A stretch of 49,471 bases of DNA from Pseudoxanthomonas sp. (lineage in GTDB: Bacteria; Pseudomonadota; Gammaproteobacteria; Xanthomonadales; Xanthomonadaceae): NCBI RefSeq assembly GCF_024710765.1, contig NZ_JANJUE010000014.1, positions 1 to 49,471 on the forward strand, read 5' to 3'. Under the pieces are notes generated by a model. It saw only the letters and a program-made list of their open reading frames with translations. It did no database searches and had not been told where the DNA came from. This document shows, one piece after another, positions 13,356 through 18,566 of the stretch (position 1 is the first letter of the stretch; each line of letters begins with the position of its first letter). The translations under genes and the position numbers were made by a program.

Positions 13356-14747
13356 ATGAAAAAGAAGGTAACTCGGCGGCCGTTGCGCCCGTTCCGTATT
13401 GGGTTGCTCGGACTGCTGATACCTCTGACGCTGGCCTCCACGGCCCAGACGCCTCCCGCCGGAACCGCGCACGCCGTTTCGCCGGTGCCCGCCGCCACGG
13501 CCTCTGTTCCCGCCACGCAAGCCAATACCGCCACGACGGTGGCCGCCGCGACCGCATCGGCATCCACGCTCGCCCCGGGTTTCGACGTTGCCCGTTTCGA
13601 GGCCATGGCGCAGCAGTTGACGATGGGCGAGCGCGTGCCGGGCATGGCGCTGGCGATCGTCCACAATGGCCGCGTGCTCACCGCCAAGGGCTATGGCGTC
13701 ACCGACGTCAGCGCGCCGCAGACGATCGACGGACATACCGTGTTCCGCCTGGCGTCGCTGTCCAAGGCGTTCGCCGGCACCCTGGCCGGGCTGCTGGTCA
13801 ACGATGGCTCGCTGCGCTGGGACAGCCGCGTGGCCGACTACGTGCCCAACTTCCGCCTCAGCGATCCCATGGCGACGCGCCAGGTGACCGTGGCCGATCT
13901 GTTGAGCCACCGCGTCGGCCTGCAGGCGCACAACGCGTTCGACCGCGACATCGAGGGCAACGCCGACTATTACGCGGTGACCCAGAAGCTCGCCTACGCG
14001 CCGATGAGCTGCGTACCCGGCCAGTGCTACGCCTACCAGAACGTCGCCTTCAGCGTGTTCGGCGACGTGGTGTTCGCCGCCACCGGCGGCTTCTACGAGC
14101 AGGCGGTCGACAAGCGCATCTTCAAGCCGCTGGGCATGAACGACGCCAGCCTCGGCCTGGAAGGCATCCAGAACAGCGCGCGCTGGGCGCGTCCGCACGT
14201 ACGCAGCCGCAATGGCTGGGTCGCATTGACGCCCAAGCCGACCTACTACCGCCTGGCGCCCGCGGCCGGCGTCAACGCCAGCATCAGCGACATGGCGCAA
14301 TGGCTGGTGGCACAGACCGGACATCGCCAGGACGTGCTGTCCGCGCCGTTGCTGGCCACCCTGCACGCCTCGCTGGTGCCCACGCCTGGCGAGATGCGTG
14401 CCGGCTGGCGTCGCGATCGCATCTACTCGGCCGGCTACGCGCTGGGCTGGCGCGTGTTCGACTACGCCAACCATCCGGTGATCTTCCACGCCGGTGCGGT
14501 GCAGGGCTACCGTGGCATGGTCGCGCTGGTGCCCGAACGCGACCTGGGCATCGCCATCCTCTGGAACAGCGACAGCTCGGTGCCTTCCGGACTGCTGCCG
14601 ACCATCCTCGACCGCGCCATTGGCCTCTCGCCGCAGCAGTGGCTGGATACACCGATGGACACCAGCGACCTGCTGATGGCCGATTCGCCGCAACCGGACA
14701 ACAAGAGCGGCGCGGCCGCCAGCCAGGCGACGGCGTCTCCACGCTGA
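13356..14747 (+). CDS. Class C beta-lactamase-fold serine hydrolase
   Basis: A 463-residue exported protein. After an N-terminal signal/anchor (residues 13-30) comes a Pro/Ala/Thr-rich linker to about residue 75, then a beta-lactamase-related domain with SLSK (Ser-x-x-Lys nucleophile, near residue 134), YQN (Tyr-x-Asn) and HAG in HAGAVQGY (His-x-Gly triad). Such proteins include esterases, D-aminopeptidases and peptidoglycan-related hydrolases; real beta-lactamase activity is not implied. A GC-rich terminator-like hairpin follows. Confidence 0.9.
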   Translation: MKKKVTRRPLRPFRIGLLGLLIPLTLASTAQTPPAGTAHAVSPVPAATASVPATQANTATTVAAATASASTLAPGFDVARFEAMAQQLTMGERVPGMALAIVHNGRVLTAKGYGVTDVSAPQTIDGHTVFRLASLSKAFAGTLAGLLVNDGSLRWDSRVADYVPNFRLSDPMATRQVTVADLLSHRVGLQAHNAFDRDIEGNADYYAVTQKLAYAPMSCVPGQCYAYQNVAFSVFGDVVFAATGGFYEQAVDKRIFKPLGMNDASLGLEGIQNSARWARPHVRSRNGWVALTPKPTYYRLAPAAGVNASISDMAQWLVAQTGHRQDVLSAPLLATLHASLVPTPGEMRAGWRRDRIYSAGYALGWRVFDYANHPVIFHAGAVQGYRGMVALVPERDLGIAILWNSDSSVPSGLLPTILDRAIGLSPQQWLDTPMDTSDLLMADSPQPDNKSGAAASQATASPR

Positions 14748-14777
14748 CATCCACCGCGACCTCTCCTTGATCCCGCA

Positions 14778-14812
14778 CGCCCCGCCCGGTCATCCGCGCG
14801 GGGCGTTCTGCT
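14778..14812 (+). terminator. GC-rich hairpin between convergent genes
   Basis: CGCCCCGC (14778-14785) pairs with GCGGGGCG (14798-14805) around a 12-base loop, followed by TTCTGCTT. The T-run is imperfect. It lies between the converging hydrolase and SRPBCC genes and may terminate the former. Confidence 0.55.
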
Positions 14813-14825
14813 TCCTGGGCCACGC

Positions 14826-15365
14826 TCAGCGCGGCGGAGCGGTTTCCAGCAGGGTCTTGAGCCTGGCCAGGCCACGCTCGTAGTCGGTGCCCATCATTCG
14901 ATCGAACAGCAACCCGAACCAGCGCGACATCGGGTTGTAGCCGTGCTCGGTATCGAAGGCCCAGGTCAGGCGGGTGGCACCGGTGCCCTCAGGAGATAGC
15001 GTGTAGGTCGCGGTCGACGGATGTCCGCCGAAGTCCAGCGCCACCACCACGCGCGCCGGCGGCCGGCTTTCGGTGATCCGCTGGCTGCCGGTACCCACCG
15101 CCTGGTTGCCCGACCAGCGCATGCCCGCGCCGACGCCTTCGGCCGGTCCTTCATAGGTGTAACTGGCCTGGGGATCGGCGGCGAACCAGGGTGACCACTC
15201 GTTGAACCGGCGGAACGAGTTGAGGGTGGCGAACACCTCCGCGGGCGGCCGCTGGATGGTGATCGATCTTTCCACGTGGGTACGCGCCGGCAGCAGCAGG
15301 CTGCCCACGACCAGCAGCACGCCCAGCAGGATCAGGGTGCCGAGGGCCCACTTCAGCAGCTTCAT
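14826..15365 (-). CDS. SRPBCC-family lipid/ligand-binding protein
   Basis: A 179-residue protein with one N-terminal membrane anchor (LLKWALGTLILLGVLLVVGSLLL) followed by a START/polyketide-cyclase-like domain: ERSITIQRPPAEVFATLNSFRRFNEWSPWF is the typical opening strand and helix, and the C-terminal helix YERGLARLKTLLE closes the fold. GGAGG lies before the ATG. It probably binds a hydrophobic ligand at the periplasmic face. Ligand unknown; the gene is monocistronic. Confidence 0.85.
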   Translation of the reverse strand: MKLLKWALGTLILLGVLLVVGSLLLPARTHVERSITIQRPPAEVFATLNSFRRFNEWSPWFAADPQASYTYEGPAEGVGAGMRWSGNQAVGTGSQRITESRPPARVVVALDFGGHPSTATYTLSPEGTGATRLTWAFDTEHGYNPMSRWFGLLFDRMMGTDYERGLARLKTLLETAPPR

Positions 15366-15409
15366 GTCGTTCCTCCGTTCCGGATGGCGACAAGCTTAAG
15401 CGCCCGCAC

Positions 15410-15450
15410 AAAAAAAAACTCTCCCCCTGCTGGGCACAGGGAGAGAGTCT
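15410..15450 (-). terminator. Intrinsic terminator of the H1-like gene
   Basis: On the minus strand, ACTCTCTCCCTG and AGGGGGAGAGT form a strong stem around a short loop, followed by an uninterrupted T-run of eight or more. It lies about 30 bases after the stop codon of the H1-like gene. Confidence 0.9.
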
Positions 15451-15476
15451 GATGGATACGGCTAATCGGGGTTGGC

Positions 15477-15926
15477 TTAGATCAGCGGAGCCGGGGTGGC
15501 CGGCAGCGCGACCGGAGCCGCTTTCTTCTTGGACTTGCGGGCAGGCTTCTTGGCGGCCTTCTTCGCAGCCTTCTTGGCCGGCTTCTTGGCAGCCTTCTTG
15601 GCGGCCTTCTTCACGGTCTTCTTGGCAGCCTTCTTGGTGGCCTTCTTCGCAGCCTTCTTCGCAGGCTTGCGGGCGACCTTCTTGGCAGCCTTCTTGGCGG
15701 TCTTCTTGGCAGCCTTCTTGGTGGCCTTCTTCGCAGCCTTCTTGGCCGGCTTCTTGGCGACCTTCTTGGCAGCCTTCTTCACGGTCTTCTTGGCGGCCTT
15801 CTTGGTGACCTTCTTGGCAGCCTTCTTGGCGGCCTTCTTCACGGTCTTCTTGGCGGCTGCCTTCTTGGTCGCCTTCTTGGCGGCCTTCTTGGCAGGTTTC
15901 TTCTTAGCAGCTTTCTTCATTGCCAT
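15477..15926 (-). CDS. Histone H1-like Lys/Ala-repeat nucleoid protein
   Basis: A 149-residue protein made almost entirely of KKAAKK-type units (KKAAKKA, KKTVKK, KKPAKK) with a 15-residue hydrophobic tail (ALPATPAPLI). This is the composition of bacterial histone H1-like proteins and the AlgP C-terminal domain, which bind DNA non-specifically and compact or bend it. GAGGAG precedes the ATG. The strongly repetitive DNA makes the copy number prone to change between isolates. The plus strand is also open through the repeat but would encode Ala/Phe/Leu-rich nonsense. Upstream is an unusually long and structured non-coding region. Confidence 0.9.
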   Translation of the reverse strand: MAMKKAAKKKPAKKAAKKATKKAAAKKTVKKAAKKAAKKVTKKAAKKTVKKAAKKVAKKPAKKAAKKATKKAAKKTAKKAAKKVARKPAKKAAKKATKKAAKKTVKKAAKKAAKKPAKKAAKKAAKKPARKSKKKAAPVALPATPAPLI

Positions 15927-15979
15927 GTGATGGCTCCTCGTCAGTGAACTTGGATTGGGTACATCGGGGTACGAAACCT

Positions 15980-16056
15980 CTGCCCGAAGGCAGGCCCAGT
16001 TGCGGAATCAGCCGCGGGAGTCGGACCCGCAGGCAACCGTCGACGCGCCAGGCGCG
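15980..16056 (-). promoter_or_regulatory. Structured 5' leader of the H1-like gene
   Basis: Three hairpins stack within 77 bases upstream of the H1-like start: CGCGCC/GGCGCG around one base (16044-16056); GCGGG/CCCGC around a seven-base loop (16014-16030), enclosed by GTTGC/GCAAC (15999-16037); and CTGCC/GGCAG with a four-base loop (15980-15993). Such density suggests a folded mRNA leader or a protein-binding RNA. It does not match a riboswitch class I know. Confidence 0.5.
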
Positions 16057-16107
16057 TTGAACCGGATTCTTTTGTAAGGACCCTTCTGACGTGGTCCCCT
16101 ACAAATA

Positions 16108-16278
16108 CGAAAACACCCGCGTCGCCGGACGGCGCGGGTGCGATGAGGAAGGTGGGGCGCTTTTTTTCGGGGGAAGCGGGTCCTGCGTCCGCCGCTACCT
16201 GGGCTGGGACGATTGGCCTTGTTGTCACTCGCGCTGTCGTATTGATCCGACTCACTCGCTTCCGCAGCACTCTCTGCT
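16108..16278 (-). ncRNA. Candidate small RNA or attenuated leader, about 170 nt
   Basis: The segment is bounded by a promoter (-35 TTGACA at 16308-16313, 17-base spacer, -10 TAGGTT at 16285-16290) and by an intrinsic terminator-like hairpin ending in TTTT. It begins inside a hairpin (CGCAGC/GCTGCG, 16263-16281), contains an unpaired A7 tract and a CCTTCCTC stretch complementary to Shine-Dalgarno sequences, and lacks a convincing coding frame. It could be a free sRNA or the terminated leader of the H1-like gene located 180 bases further on. Boundaries are predicted only. Confidence 0.45.
16110..16140 (-). terminator. Intrinsic terminator-like hairpin upstream of the H1-like gene
   Basis: On the minus strand CACCCGCG and CGCGGGTG form a perfect eight-pair stem with an 11-base loop, directly followed by TTTTCG. 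It points towards the H1-like gene and ends no visible coding gene, since gcvH has its own terminator 750 bases upstream. Confidence 0.65.
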
Positions 16279-16284
16279 GCGCGA

Positions 16285-16313
16285 AACCTAATCACGGTTT
16301 TTGGACGTGTCAA
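16285..16313 (-). promoter_or_regulatory. Sigma-70 type promoter in the 1 kb non-coding region
   Basis: A perfect -35 TTGACA (16308-16313) is separated by exactly 17 bases from TAGGTT (16285-16290), which matches the -10 consensus at three of six positions. The -35 box sits within GTGTTGACAC. Transcription would start near 16278, reading towards the H1-like gene. Confidence 0.5.
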
Positions 16314-16894
16314 CACCTCGGCGAATTTTTTTTCCATGGCCGCCGCCGCCCGCCCGGTCGTCCGGCTTCGGCCAAGCTTGGGAAATGACCATGACGGATC
16401 CAGCCGGCAATACCCGCAGCGACGCGGCACGAAAAAAAAAAGCGCAAAAACGAGTGCTTTTTTGATATCGCTTCGCGCGACGCGTCATCGACATCGTGAT
16501 CCGCCACGCGGGTAGTCGCGTCGCCGGGATCCCGGTTGCGGCCTAAACGGCACCTAAAAATTTTTCCGCCGAACGGTCCGGTTTGGGGCGGCGCACAAGC
16601 CCGATTGCGCGGATTTGCGCAAAAAAAATCCGTCGTCGCGACCGTGTTCGCCGCCTCCCGGAGATGCGTTGGCGCCTCGGATCGGCACCCGTGATGCACG
16701 CCGCCAACCTTCGCCGCCCGGTCACCGGATCGGATGAGGCATGCCATCGCGCACCGGTCGAGGTTGCCGTGGACGACGCCACGCGCTGAAAAAAACCGCG
16801 GCGGAATTCCGACGCCGGCCACGGCAACGACGCATCTCCATCGGCCGGGCGCGGTTCCGGGATGCGCTCCGGTCCATTCCCTCGGCGGGAAGGC
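16314..16894. other. Non-coding stretch with repeated A/T tracts
   Basis: About 580 bases without a credible gene: frames that are open here are Arg/Pro-rich and lack ribosome-binding sites. It contains unusually many homopolymer tracts for this genome: T8 at 16326-16333, A10 at 16432-16441, A5 at 16446-16450, T6 at 16458-16463, A5T5 at 16556-16565, A8 at 16621-16628 and A7 at 16789-16795. CGGATTT/AAATCCG (16610-16632) can form a hairpin. Such tracts favour curved DNA and nucleoid-protein binding, possibly including the neighbouring H1-like protein. Confidence 0.5.
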
Positions 16895-16925
16895 AAAAAA
16901 AACCGGCCGCGCGAAGGCGGCCGGT
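16895..16925 (-). terminator. Intrinsic terminator of gcvH
   Basis: On the minus strand ACCGGCCGC and GCGGCCGGT form a nine-pair stem with loop CTTCGC, followed by eight T. It ends 28 bases after the gcvH stop codon. Confidence 0.93.
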
Positions 16926-16952
16926 CGATGCTCCACGAGGAGGCGCGGGGAC

Positions 16953-17348
16953 TCAGTGGTCCTCGTCCTCCAGCAGTTCGGCGTAGTCGTCGGGGGACAG
17001 CAGTTCGTTGAGCTGTTCCGGTTCCTCGGCCTCGACCACGAAGATCCAGCCTTCGCCGTAGGCATCCTCGTTGATGGTCTCGGGCTTGTCGGCCAGCGCC
17101 GCGTTGACCTCGATCACCTTGCCGGTGACCGGGCTGTAGACGTCCGAAGCCGCCTTCACCGACTCGACGACGGCGCTGGCGTTGCCGGCCTCGACGCGGT
17201 CGCCGACATTCGGCAGCTCGACGTAGACCAGATCGCCGAGCAGGCCCTGCGCGTGATCGGAAATGCCGACGGTGACGCGGCCACCGCCTTCGGCGCGGGC
17301 CCATTCGTGGGACTTCAGGAATTTGAGATCGCCGGGAATCTCGCTCAT
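16953..17348 (-). CDS. gcvH: Glycine cleavage system H protein
   Basis: A 131-residue lipoyl carrier that shuttles the aminomethyl group between the P, T and L proteins of the glycine cleavage system. The lipoylation motif [12 protein letters not shown] places the modified lysine at residue 65, and [19 protein letters not shown] and the C-terminal acidic helix are typical. GGAG precedes the ATG. It lies 108 bases downstream of gcvT in the same orientation; gcvP is not in this window. Confidence 0.97.
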
Positions 17349-17456
17349 GTTGGCTACTCCGGATTTGTATCGGGTGGGCGGAAAGAGGGGGCTAGTTTAG
17401 CTGCTTATGCCGGGCATGAAAGCGGTCCGGTCCAACGACCGGGACCGCCATCGTTT

Positions 17457-18566
17457 TCATTCACCCAGCACGCCAGGCTGGGCCTGGCCGTCGCGGACGA
17501 ACGGGAACTTCACCACCCGGACCGGGACTTCCTTGCCACGGATGTCCACGCGGACCGCGCCGGGCTCGCCGGCCGGCACGCGGGCGAAAGCGATCGCCTT
17601 GCCGAGCGTGGGCGAGAACGTGCCCGAGAGGATTTCGCCGTTGCCGTTGGCGGTCAGGACGGTCTGGCCATGGCGCAGCACGCCCTTCTCGTCCATCACC
17701 AGGCCGATCATCTGGCGCGGCGCGCCGTTGGCCTTCTGCTGTTCCAGCACCGGACGGCCGATGAAGTCGCGACCGGCGTCCAGGGCGACCGTCCAGGCCA
17801 GCGCGGCCTCGTACGGCGACACCGACTCGTCCATGTCCTGGCCATACAGGTTCATGCCGGCTTCCAGGCGCAGGGTGTCGCGCGCGCCGAGACCGGCCGG
17901 CTTCACGCCCGCGTCCAGCAGTGCGTTCCAGAAGGCGACCGCATCCTGTTCCGGCAGCACGATCTCGTAGCCGTCCTCGCCGGTGTAACCGGTACGGGCG
18001 ACGAACAGCGGCACGCCCGCGCTGCTCTGCGCCTGCACGGCGGCGAAGCGGGACAGCTTGTCGGCGGCGGCGCGGTCGGCTTCGCGCAGCAGGCCGATGA
18101 CCTTCGCGCGGGCGGTGGGGCCCTGCACGGCGATCATGGCGAACTCGGGGCGTTCCTTCACTTCCACGCCGAATGCCGCGGCCTGGGACTGGATCCACGC
18201 CAGATCCTTGTCGCGGGTGGCGGCGTTGACGACCAGGCGGAAGAACGCCTCGTCCATGAAGTAGATGATCAGGTCGTCGATGACGCCGCCGCCGGCGTCC
18301 AGCATGCAGGTGTACAGCGCCTTGCCGGACACCTTCAGCTTGTCGACCGAGTTGGCCACCAGGTGGCGCAGGAACTCGCGGGTGCGGGCGCCATGCAGAT
18401 CCACCACGGTCATGTGGCTGACGTCGAACATGCCGGCATCGCGGCGCACCTGGTGGTGTTCCTCGATCTGGGAGCCGTAGTGGATCGGCATGTCCCAGCC
18501 GCCGAAATCGACCATCTTGGCGCCAAGCGCGCGATGGGTGTCGTTGAGGATGGTCTTCTGGGTCAT
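17457..18566 (-). CDS. gcvT: Glycine cleavage system T protein (aminomethyltransferase)
   Basis: A 369-residue folate-dependent enzyme that releases ammonia from the aminomethylated H protein and forms 5,10-methylene-tetrahydrofolate. Family motifs include [36 protein letters not shown] with the catalytic aspartate, [12 protein letters not shown] and [15 protein letters not shown] start at the ATG at 18564-18566 (MTQKTIL) after GGAG; the frame stays open 16 codons further upstream. It is first in the gcvT-gcvH unit. The upstream leader shows a GATAAT-like -10 box but no glycine riboswitch. Confidence 0.97.

Follow-up and report, generated by a model that had tools for sequence, protein, structure and literature searches.

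The locus and its gene order

The window analysed here is a 49,471-nt stretch of DNA from Pseudoxanthomonas sp. (contig NZ_JANJUE010000014.1 of assembly GCF_024710765.1, which consists of 443 contigs). Its minus strand carries a gene for an Ala/Lys-rich, H1-like protein, preceded by a promoter-like pair of elements, a presumed leader RNA with two conserved blocks, a terminator-like hairpin between these blocks, and a long stop-free reading frame that passes through the hairpin (Table 1). Searches of the H1-like protein against Pfam and NCBIfam returned weak, chance-level rows only; XC_1234, which may be a counterpart of this gene, carries the annotation 'Histone H1' (PMC8578834).

Table 1. Features of the H1-like locus in window coordinates
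Feature	Position	Strand	Basis
Upstream motif TTGCGCA..GCGCA..TTGTGCG (TTTGCGCAnTTTnGCGCAAATCGGcTTGTGCGaCGC)	16588-16622	(-)	Pattern search in relatives
A-tract/T-tract block AAAAAAGCACTCGTTTTTGCGCTTTTTTTTTTC	16431-16463	(-)	Similar tracts at about -130 in relatives, by eye
-35 element TTGACA	16313-16308	(-)	Window sequence; promoter pattern in the family; 62/62 rows of alignment A2 (loci picked by patterns requiring TTGACA; one locus with TTGACT, L052, excluded)
-10-like element TAGGTT	16290-16285	(-)	Window sequence and alignments of relatives
Presumed transcript 5' end: AGCAG..CTGC hairpin, then GGAAGCGA and GTG	16278-16253	(-)	Folding, alignment
Leader frame, 104 codons, GTG (16255-16253) to TGA (15943-15941)	16255-15941	(-)	Frame analyses in relatives
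Intrinsic-terminator-like hairpin CACCCGCG/CGCGGGTG and TTTT	16140-16110	(-)	Sequence, relatives, folding against shuffles
Second conserved leader block: ATCCG, hairpin GCGCCTGGCGC, CGACGG, hairpin GCGGG-TCCGACT-CCCGC, ACTGGGC	16067-15994	(-)	Alignments
Shine-Dalgarno GAGGAG of the H1-like gene, inside conserved CACTGACGAGGAGCCA	15939-15934	(-)	Alignments, duplex energy
H1-like Ala/Lys-rich protein gene, 149 aa	15926-15477	(-)	ORF; Lys-rich frame in relatives

The gene order is nearly constant among relatives. A Lys-rich frame starts 257-488 nt after TTGACA in 162 of 176 loci, all of them selected with patterns that require the promoter. Two more, L085 and L115, also have a Lys-rich gene but one with less Lys at its beginning, which brings the total to 164; the remaining 12 are truncated within 350 nt of the promoter. 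The set includes some genomes twice, and 143 of the 162 leaders are distinct. Upstream, gcvH is found in 138 of the 141 loci with enough sequence. Just past gcvH, at 16901-16926 (-), lies a strong terminator-like hairpin that would separate gcvH transcription from the leader. Six loci of a single genus (L053-L056, L058 and L059) carry an extra block like CAGACAGGTGCTGTCGATTTCGGCGG between the terminator and the gene.

A putative promoter conserved across Xanthomonadaceae

A first-pass annotation of this DNA had described TTGACA, an exact 17-nt spacer and a partial -10 on the minus strand, and all three are present at 16313-16285, with the spacer at 16307-16291. The -10-like TAGGTT matches three of six consensus letters (T1, A2, T6), and in aligned relatives GTGAT at the spacer end and TTTCG after the -10 are conserved nearly as well. 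One comparison behind the -10, the second block and the Shine-Dalgarno region covers the 20 loci listed out of 30. A strict promoter scan of 14500-17500 returned no sites against 0.3 expected and did not call the TTGACA/TAGGTT pair, while a terminator scan of the same interval gave seven sites against 3.6 expected, about twofold over shuffles. Since both elements are thus near chance by consensus alone, the case for them must rest on relatives.

In relatives the signal is strong. The region was matched in 35 of 36 other genomes of the genus. A 32-nt promoter pattern (at most three mismatches) occurs in 236 of the 297 Xanthomonadaceae genomes, spread over 38 of 54 genera; the same pattern read backward, as a control, matched none of the genomes listed. 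Among the 61 pattern-negative genomes, which are every such genome of the 297, a sequence-only model of 143 positions recovered 45 at E<=0.01 and 33 at E<=1e-4. In an order-wide sample with stricter filters, 39 of 200 genomes matched, 36 of them in Xanthomonadaceae; the three outside the family have E values of 0.004-0.009, about chance level. For the first 143 nt from TTGACA, E values reached 6e-33 and were <=1e-10 in 35 of the 36 matching family genomes of this sample. Exact matches to a shorter pattern numbered at least 116 stretches, and the 80 listed include Xanthomonas, Stenotrophomonas, Lysobacter, Luteimonas, Pseudoxanthomonas and Vulcaniibacterium. Plasmids held no match to the region. 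The promoter is therefore supported by its conservation and not by its consensus score, and judged from sequence comparison the stretch is a real, deeply conserved control region in Xanthomonadaceae. A sigma-32 promoter is not favoured, as CTTGAAA occurs in some relatives only. One record titled Bacillus subtilis subsp. subtilis SK7B5 (L082) has a Stenotrophomonas-like copy of the locus with gcvH and gcvT and is probably a mislabelled or contaminated assembly.

Conservation extends upstream of the promoter. The TTTGCGCAnTTTnGCGCAAATCGGcTTGTGCGaCGC motif lies about 307 nt upstream of TTGACA at a nearly fixed distance (74 of 102 hits at -306 to -310), and the sequence between motif and promoter is variable; 55 of 157 loci were unmatched by the expression used. 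Among ten genomes, five hold one copy of the motif, a sixth holds two, one of them elsewhere and with three mismatches, and four hold none. By eye, relatives have recurring blocks of A- and T-tracts about 130 and 250 nt upstream of the promoter (16431-16463 and about 16556-16565 in the window). Taken with the fixed spacing, these blocks give the upstream region the look of a large nucleoprotein control region, which nucleoid proteins may bind.

Conserved blocks of the leader and their folding

The transcript would start near 16278, as predicted from the position of the -10. Its 5' block is conserved in sequence and consists, in order, of the 5' hairpin, GAAGCGAGTGAG, an A/C-rich stretch, a TCCGCC/GGTGGA helix, GCTTCC and an A-tract. 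Alignment A2 of this region has 62 rows after thinning, with L066, L162, L052 and L117 removed beforehand; L168 and L027 were omitted from one 5'-block alignment. The 5' hairpin (GCAG..CTGC) kept 77.4% of its pair cells in 62 relatives, and the TCCGCC/GGTGGA helix kept 92.5% of cells, with mostly one-sided changes. Together, the three 5' helices tested kept 79.5% of pair cells versus 31-48% when slid. Covariation in these helices is weak: their score was 0.142 versus 0.128 in shuffles, a level reached by 18 of 500 shuffles. Double changes were more numerous in three of the six slid controls than in the actual helices. The conserved 5' part folds no better than shuffles (mean z -0.30 over 92 leaders), and the predicted 171-nt RNA as a whole is of unremarkable stability (z -0.24). 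At gathering score, Rfam 15 returned no family match for the stretch; at relaxed thresholds over 16108-16313 the sole row was a piece of rnk_leader on the opposite strand (E 1.9). A fold proposed by RNAalifold from 22 Pseudoxanthomonas leaders, which paired the -10 region with the Shine-Dalgarno sequence, was rejected because the -10 is probably untranscribed. The first-pass annotation had also noted a CCTTCCTC segment able to pair with Shine-Dalgarno sequences; it is not conserved as such in relatives, which leaves this pairing unsupported.

The hairpins of the second block exceed shuffles modestly (mean z -0.82 and -1.67, n=87). The T-arm-like appearance of GCGGG-TCCGACT-CCCGC raised the candidate of a tRNA or tmRNA, which was rejected, ARAGORN finding none in the window. 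The loop of this hairpin differs in Xanthomonas and Stenotrophomonas among the rows listed.

A terminator-like hairpin kept within variable sequence

The eight-pair stem with its TTTT, oriented toward the H1-like gene, is likewise present as the first-pass annotation had it: the hairpin CACCCGCG-CCGTCCGGCGA-CGCGGGTG occupies 16140-16114 (-), with eight perfect outer pairs followed by TTTT, and its end lies 188 nt before the H1-like ATG. The terminator scan lists a shorter, six-pair stem at this position (16131-16114). A GC-rich stem followed by a U tract, as in an intrinsic terminator, is thus found in the window and in many relatives. The sequence around the terminator is far more variable than the 5' part, but the hairpin is nonetheless kept. 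In folding, the terminator part beats shuffles with a mean z of -2.76, and 68 of 92 leaders fall below -2. The strongest hairpin scanned begins +165 to +195 from TTGACA in 64 of the 92 and elsewhere in 28; the first eight letters of those 64 hairpins come in 47 versions, a number that depends in part on where the scan places the hairpin edge. Alignment A1 of the leaders includes 22 of 30 loci.

The tail varies between genera. It is TTTTCGTA in most Pseudoxanthomonas, TTTCTGTA in Xanthomonas, and T-rich in records of Lysobacter gilvus (L089), Luteimonas aquatica (L104) and Vulcaniibacterium (L088). In part of Stenotrophomonas (L061, L086 and L087) the T-tract is absent, so the hairpin there cannot act as an efficient intrinsic terminator. 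By eye, no 5' segment in the leader sequences compared pairs with the changing terminator arms, and a terminator/antiterminator switch was rejected on this ground. The first-pass annotation had staked its reading on conservation and pairing changes in relatives; the promoter and the terminator hairpin bear this out, and the 5' helices, with their weak covariation, do so poorly.

A leader frame kept open irrespective of its peptide

The same annotation had seen no convincing coding frame between promoter and hairpin; a stop-free frame from a GTG nevertheless runs through the stretch. In the window this frame (315 bp) passes through the terminator hairpin, which starts about 115 nt into it, and stops 14 nt before the H1-like ATG. 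In relatives the conserved GTG lies 57-61 nt after TTGACA and the stop mostly 13-55 nt upstream of the H1 ATG; among the open rows listed, the frame is 77-134 codons long, and in L146 it overruns the H1 ATG by 52 nt.

Of 135 leaders (the 143 distinct ones minus seven without the GTG and L168), 130 have this frame open as far as 57 nt ahead of the gene, compared with 6 and 102 for the other forward frames and 19 for base shuffles. The five exceptions are L025 and L026, which stop after seven codons, and L105, L118 and L139, which stop at -85. Further leaders gave 16 open of 17, the seventeenth stopping at -58, with 0 and 11 for the other frames. Genomes missed by the promoter pattern contributed 22 loci, of which three had no gene start and one no GTG; in the remaining 18 leaders the GTG frame was open in 13 and the other frames in 0 and 8. 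Two of these five exceptions stop at -55/-56. The other three belong to a single genus and stop at -136 to -166, for which a misplaced gene start may be the cause; in L214 and L220 the gene start is also placed too far upstream.

Relatedness was approximated by sequence clusters, a rough stand-in for a tree, with L025 and L026 omitted. In the variable middle part of the leader, none of 39 clusters has a stop in the leader frame versus 19 and 14 in the other frames (Fisher p 1.2e-7). With 18 clusters the p value is 1.4e-5, and at the loosest clustering, with four, it is 0.06. The upstream control DNA shows no frame effect (stops in 33, 26 and 30 of 55 clusters, p 0.32). The second conserved block, taken alone, gives no information on this point. 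Across 49 independent pairs, counted in both directions, 10 nonsense changes were seen against 51.4 expected in the leader frame, and 68 against 91.3 and 40 against 65.3 in the other two. Selection keeps the leader frame free of stops.

No such selection acts on the peptide. In 98 leaders taken as 49 pairs, the ratio of nonsynonymous changes to chance expectation is 1.02 for the leader frame, 0.94 and 0.99 for the other frames, and 0.34 for the H1 control; by leader part it is 0.97 (first), 1.07 (middle) and 1.03 (last). Of 164 leader indels, 34 are in multiples of three, and third-position GC is 0.68 in the leader frame versus 0.85 in the H1 gene, both expected only if the leader peptide is irrelevant. 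The first codons are rich in Thr, Arg and Ser, the frame used for the second half of the leader differs between genera, and the frame has no Pfam or NCBIfam match at E<=1.

Simple translation of the frame is contradicted by the start itself: the GTG has no Shine-Dalgarno sequence, with a median duplex energy of -0.4 kcal/mol versus -7.6 at the H1 start and -1.5 at 1031 other GTGs. In favour of translation, 71 of 88 leaders are less paired around the GTG than their shuffles, a small gain (mean unpaired 0.51 versus 0.47). Seven leaders (L023, L024, L027-L030 and L122) lack the GTG; L027 has an in-frame ATG instead and the other six have no clear start. In an analysis that leaves out L025 and L026, all seven keep the corresponding frame open, which fits poorly with initiation at the GTG.

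Interpretation of the leader

Why would a family of bacteria keep a frame open and pay no heed to its peptide? The conserved promoter, hairpin and stop-free frame suggest that translating ribosomes help decide whether the H1-like gene is read. Our leading reading, held tentatively and at a little under an even chance, is that the stretch is a regulated 5' leader of the H1-like gene that may act as a translation-coupled attenuator throughout Xanthomonadaceae. Ribosome-dependent read-through would require just such a frame, stop-free and peptide-neutral, that crosses the terminator and closes ahead of the gene; this favours attenuation. Published work (PMC4824070, PMC5021804) describes ribosomes close behind polymerase as repressing intrinsic terminators in coding regions and at pyrL, and terminators within about the first 100 bp as escaping this repression; the hairpin here, about 115 nt into the frame, lies beyond that limit, which also favours attenuation coupled to translation.

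For transcription start, termination, leader translation, read-through and the signal sensed, we infer the following scheme. Transcription would start near 16278, and RNA polymerase would reach the intrinsic terminator about 140 nt later. A ribosome would initiate at GTG 16255 and read the frame, making an irrelevant peptide; if close behind the polymerase, it would cover the terminator stem and allow read-through. It would then halt 14 nt ahead of the H1-like start, with a possible hand-over to the strong Shine-Dalgarno sequence. With poor leader translation, the hairpin would form and transcription would yield just a short RNA of about 165-170 nt. The output of H1-like protein would thereby track the coupling of translation to transcription, as in pyrBI attenuation.

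A broader proposal, which we hold with somewhat less confidence than the attenuator itself and put below an even chance, is that a family-wide attenuator couples synthesis of an H1-like nucleoid protein to ribosome-polymerase coupling through a long frame selected only for its lack of stops. If so, translation would matter here as a physical act whose product is unneeded, and the frame would be a clean natural case of selection for openness, not sequence. Chromatin-like compaction of the chromosome would be tied to translational status via one leader RNA, in a leader spanning plant pathogens, soil bacteria and opportunists. The conserved promoter and leader (about 390 bp) and the upstream motif lie outside all Rfam families, and in the open-access literature we recognised no paper describing the leader of the H1-like gene.

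Alternative explanations

In our ranking, translation-coupled attenuation comes first, a small RNA second and an unregulated partial terminator third. The first-pass annotation had offered either an independent regulatory RNA or a leader ending prematurely unless antiterminated. The second option is the better supported, because a Lys-rich gene follows in every locus of sufficient length, because a consensus scan of 14500-17500 in the window recognised no second promoter, and because the hairpin sits within the stop-free frame.

The small RNA is nonetheless retained, as an unlikely but serious candidate, because transcripts ending at the hairpin would be free RNAs of about 165-170 nt. Such an RNA would act in trans, with the H1-like gene expressed via partial read-through of the terminator. 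The strong conservation of the first 143 nt, the A/C-rich stretches within it and the hairpin kept in far more variable sequence are consistent with this, and family-confined sRNAs are known, sX13 being an example (PMC3771888). However, the stretch has no Rfam match, its conserved part folds no better than shuffles, the same kind of gene follows in every locus long enough to test, and a stop-free frame continuing past the terminator is left unexplained.

Lower in probability stands a partial terminator that is constant and unregulated and simply fixes how much H1-like mRNA is made, the open frame serving only to shield the RNA from Rho. The lack of any 5' segment seen by eye to pair with the terminator arms, hence of a classical antiterminator, agrees with it, and suppression of Rho and intrinsic terminators by a translating ribosome is established (PMC5021804). 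Conservation of the spacer, discriminator and 5' block, however, exceeds what constitutive expression would appear to need.

A classical riboswitch or protein-binding leader, with an aptamer and mutually exclusive terminator and antiterminator, is improbable: the order of promoter, conserved domain, terminator and gene is the usual one and the TCCGCC/GGTGGA helix is well kept, with mostly one-sided changes, but the 5' domain has no unusual structure, covariation is weak with half of the slid controls showing more double changes, and no segment was seen to match the changing terminator arm. That the frame encodes a functional small protein, as its openness and length might suggest, is close to refuted by the ratio of 1.02 versus 0.34 for the H1 control, with no amino-acid selection in any part, no domain match and a second half whose frame varies between genera.

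Comparison with known leaders and small RNAs

In a pyrBI-type attenuator, a U-rich pause tract precedes the terminator. The window has no run of four U between 16200 and 16141, so that no such pause was seen, and the H1-like leader further differs from pyrBI in a start without a Shine-Dalgarno sequence, in an unrelated gene (for a nucleoid protein) and in a longer frame (315 bp in the window versus 135 bp for the pyrBI leader gene). The likeness lies in the arrangement, for in pyrBI (pyrL) of Escherichia coli the terminator is inside the leader gene and a trailing ribosome prevents termination (PMC4824070, PMC5021804). Here too the terminator falls within the leader frame, whose stop precedes the gene, and dependence of read-through on translation is predicted. 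By this analogy the H1-like leader may work like pyrBI; it is not classed as a member because a search for a ribosome-binding site of the leader and for a U-rich pause found neither.

The H1-like leader can also be set beside the amino-acid leader-peptide attenuators. In thrL and trpL, a short leader frame with a terminator precedes the gene. The H1-like gene also follows a leader frame and a terminator, and the first codons are Thr/Arg/Ser-rich. Unlike in those systems, the codons are not conserved as amino acids, no antiterminator pairing was seen, and the frame crosses the terminator rather than ending before it.

Among small RNAs, sX13 is confined to Xanthomonadaceae and lies downstream of polA (PMC3771888). 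The H1-like leader is similarly family-confined with a constant neighbourhood, but it is at a different locus and its RNA would run into a gene in the same direction. Another, sRNA-Xoo6, which may correspond to the present locus, was 188 nt as cloned and about 250 nt on blots (PMC3039613).
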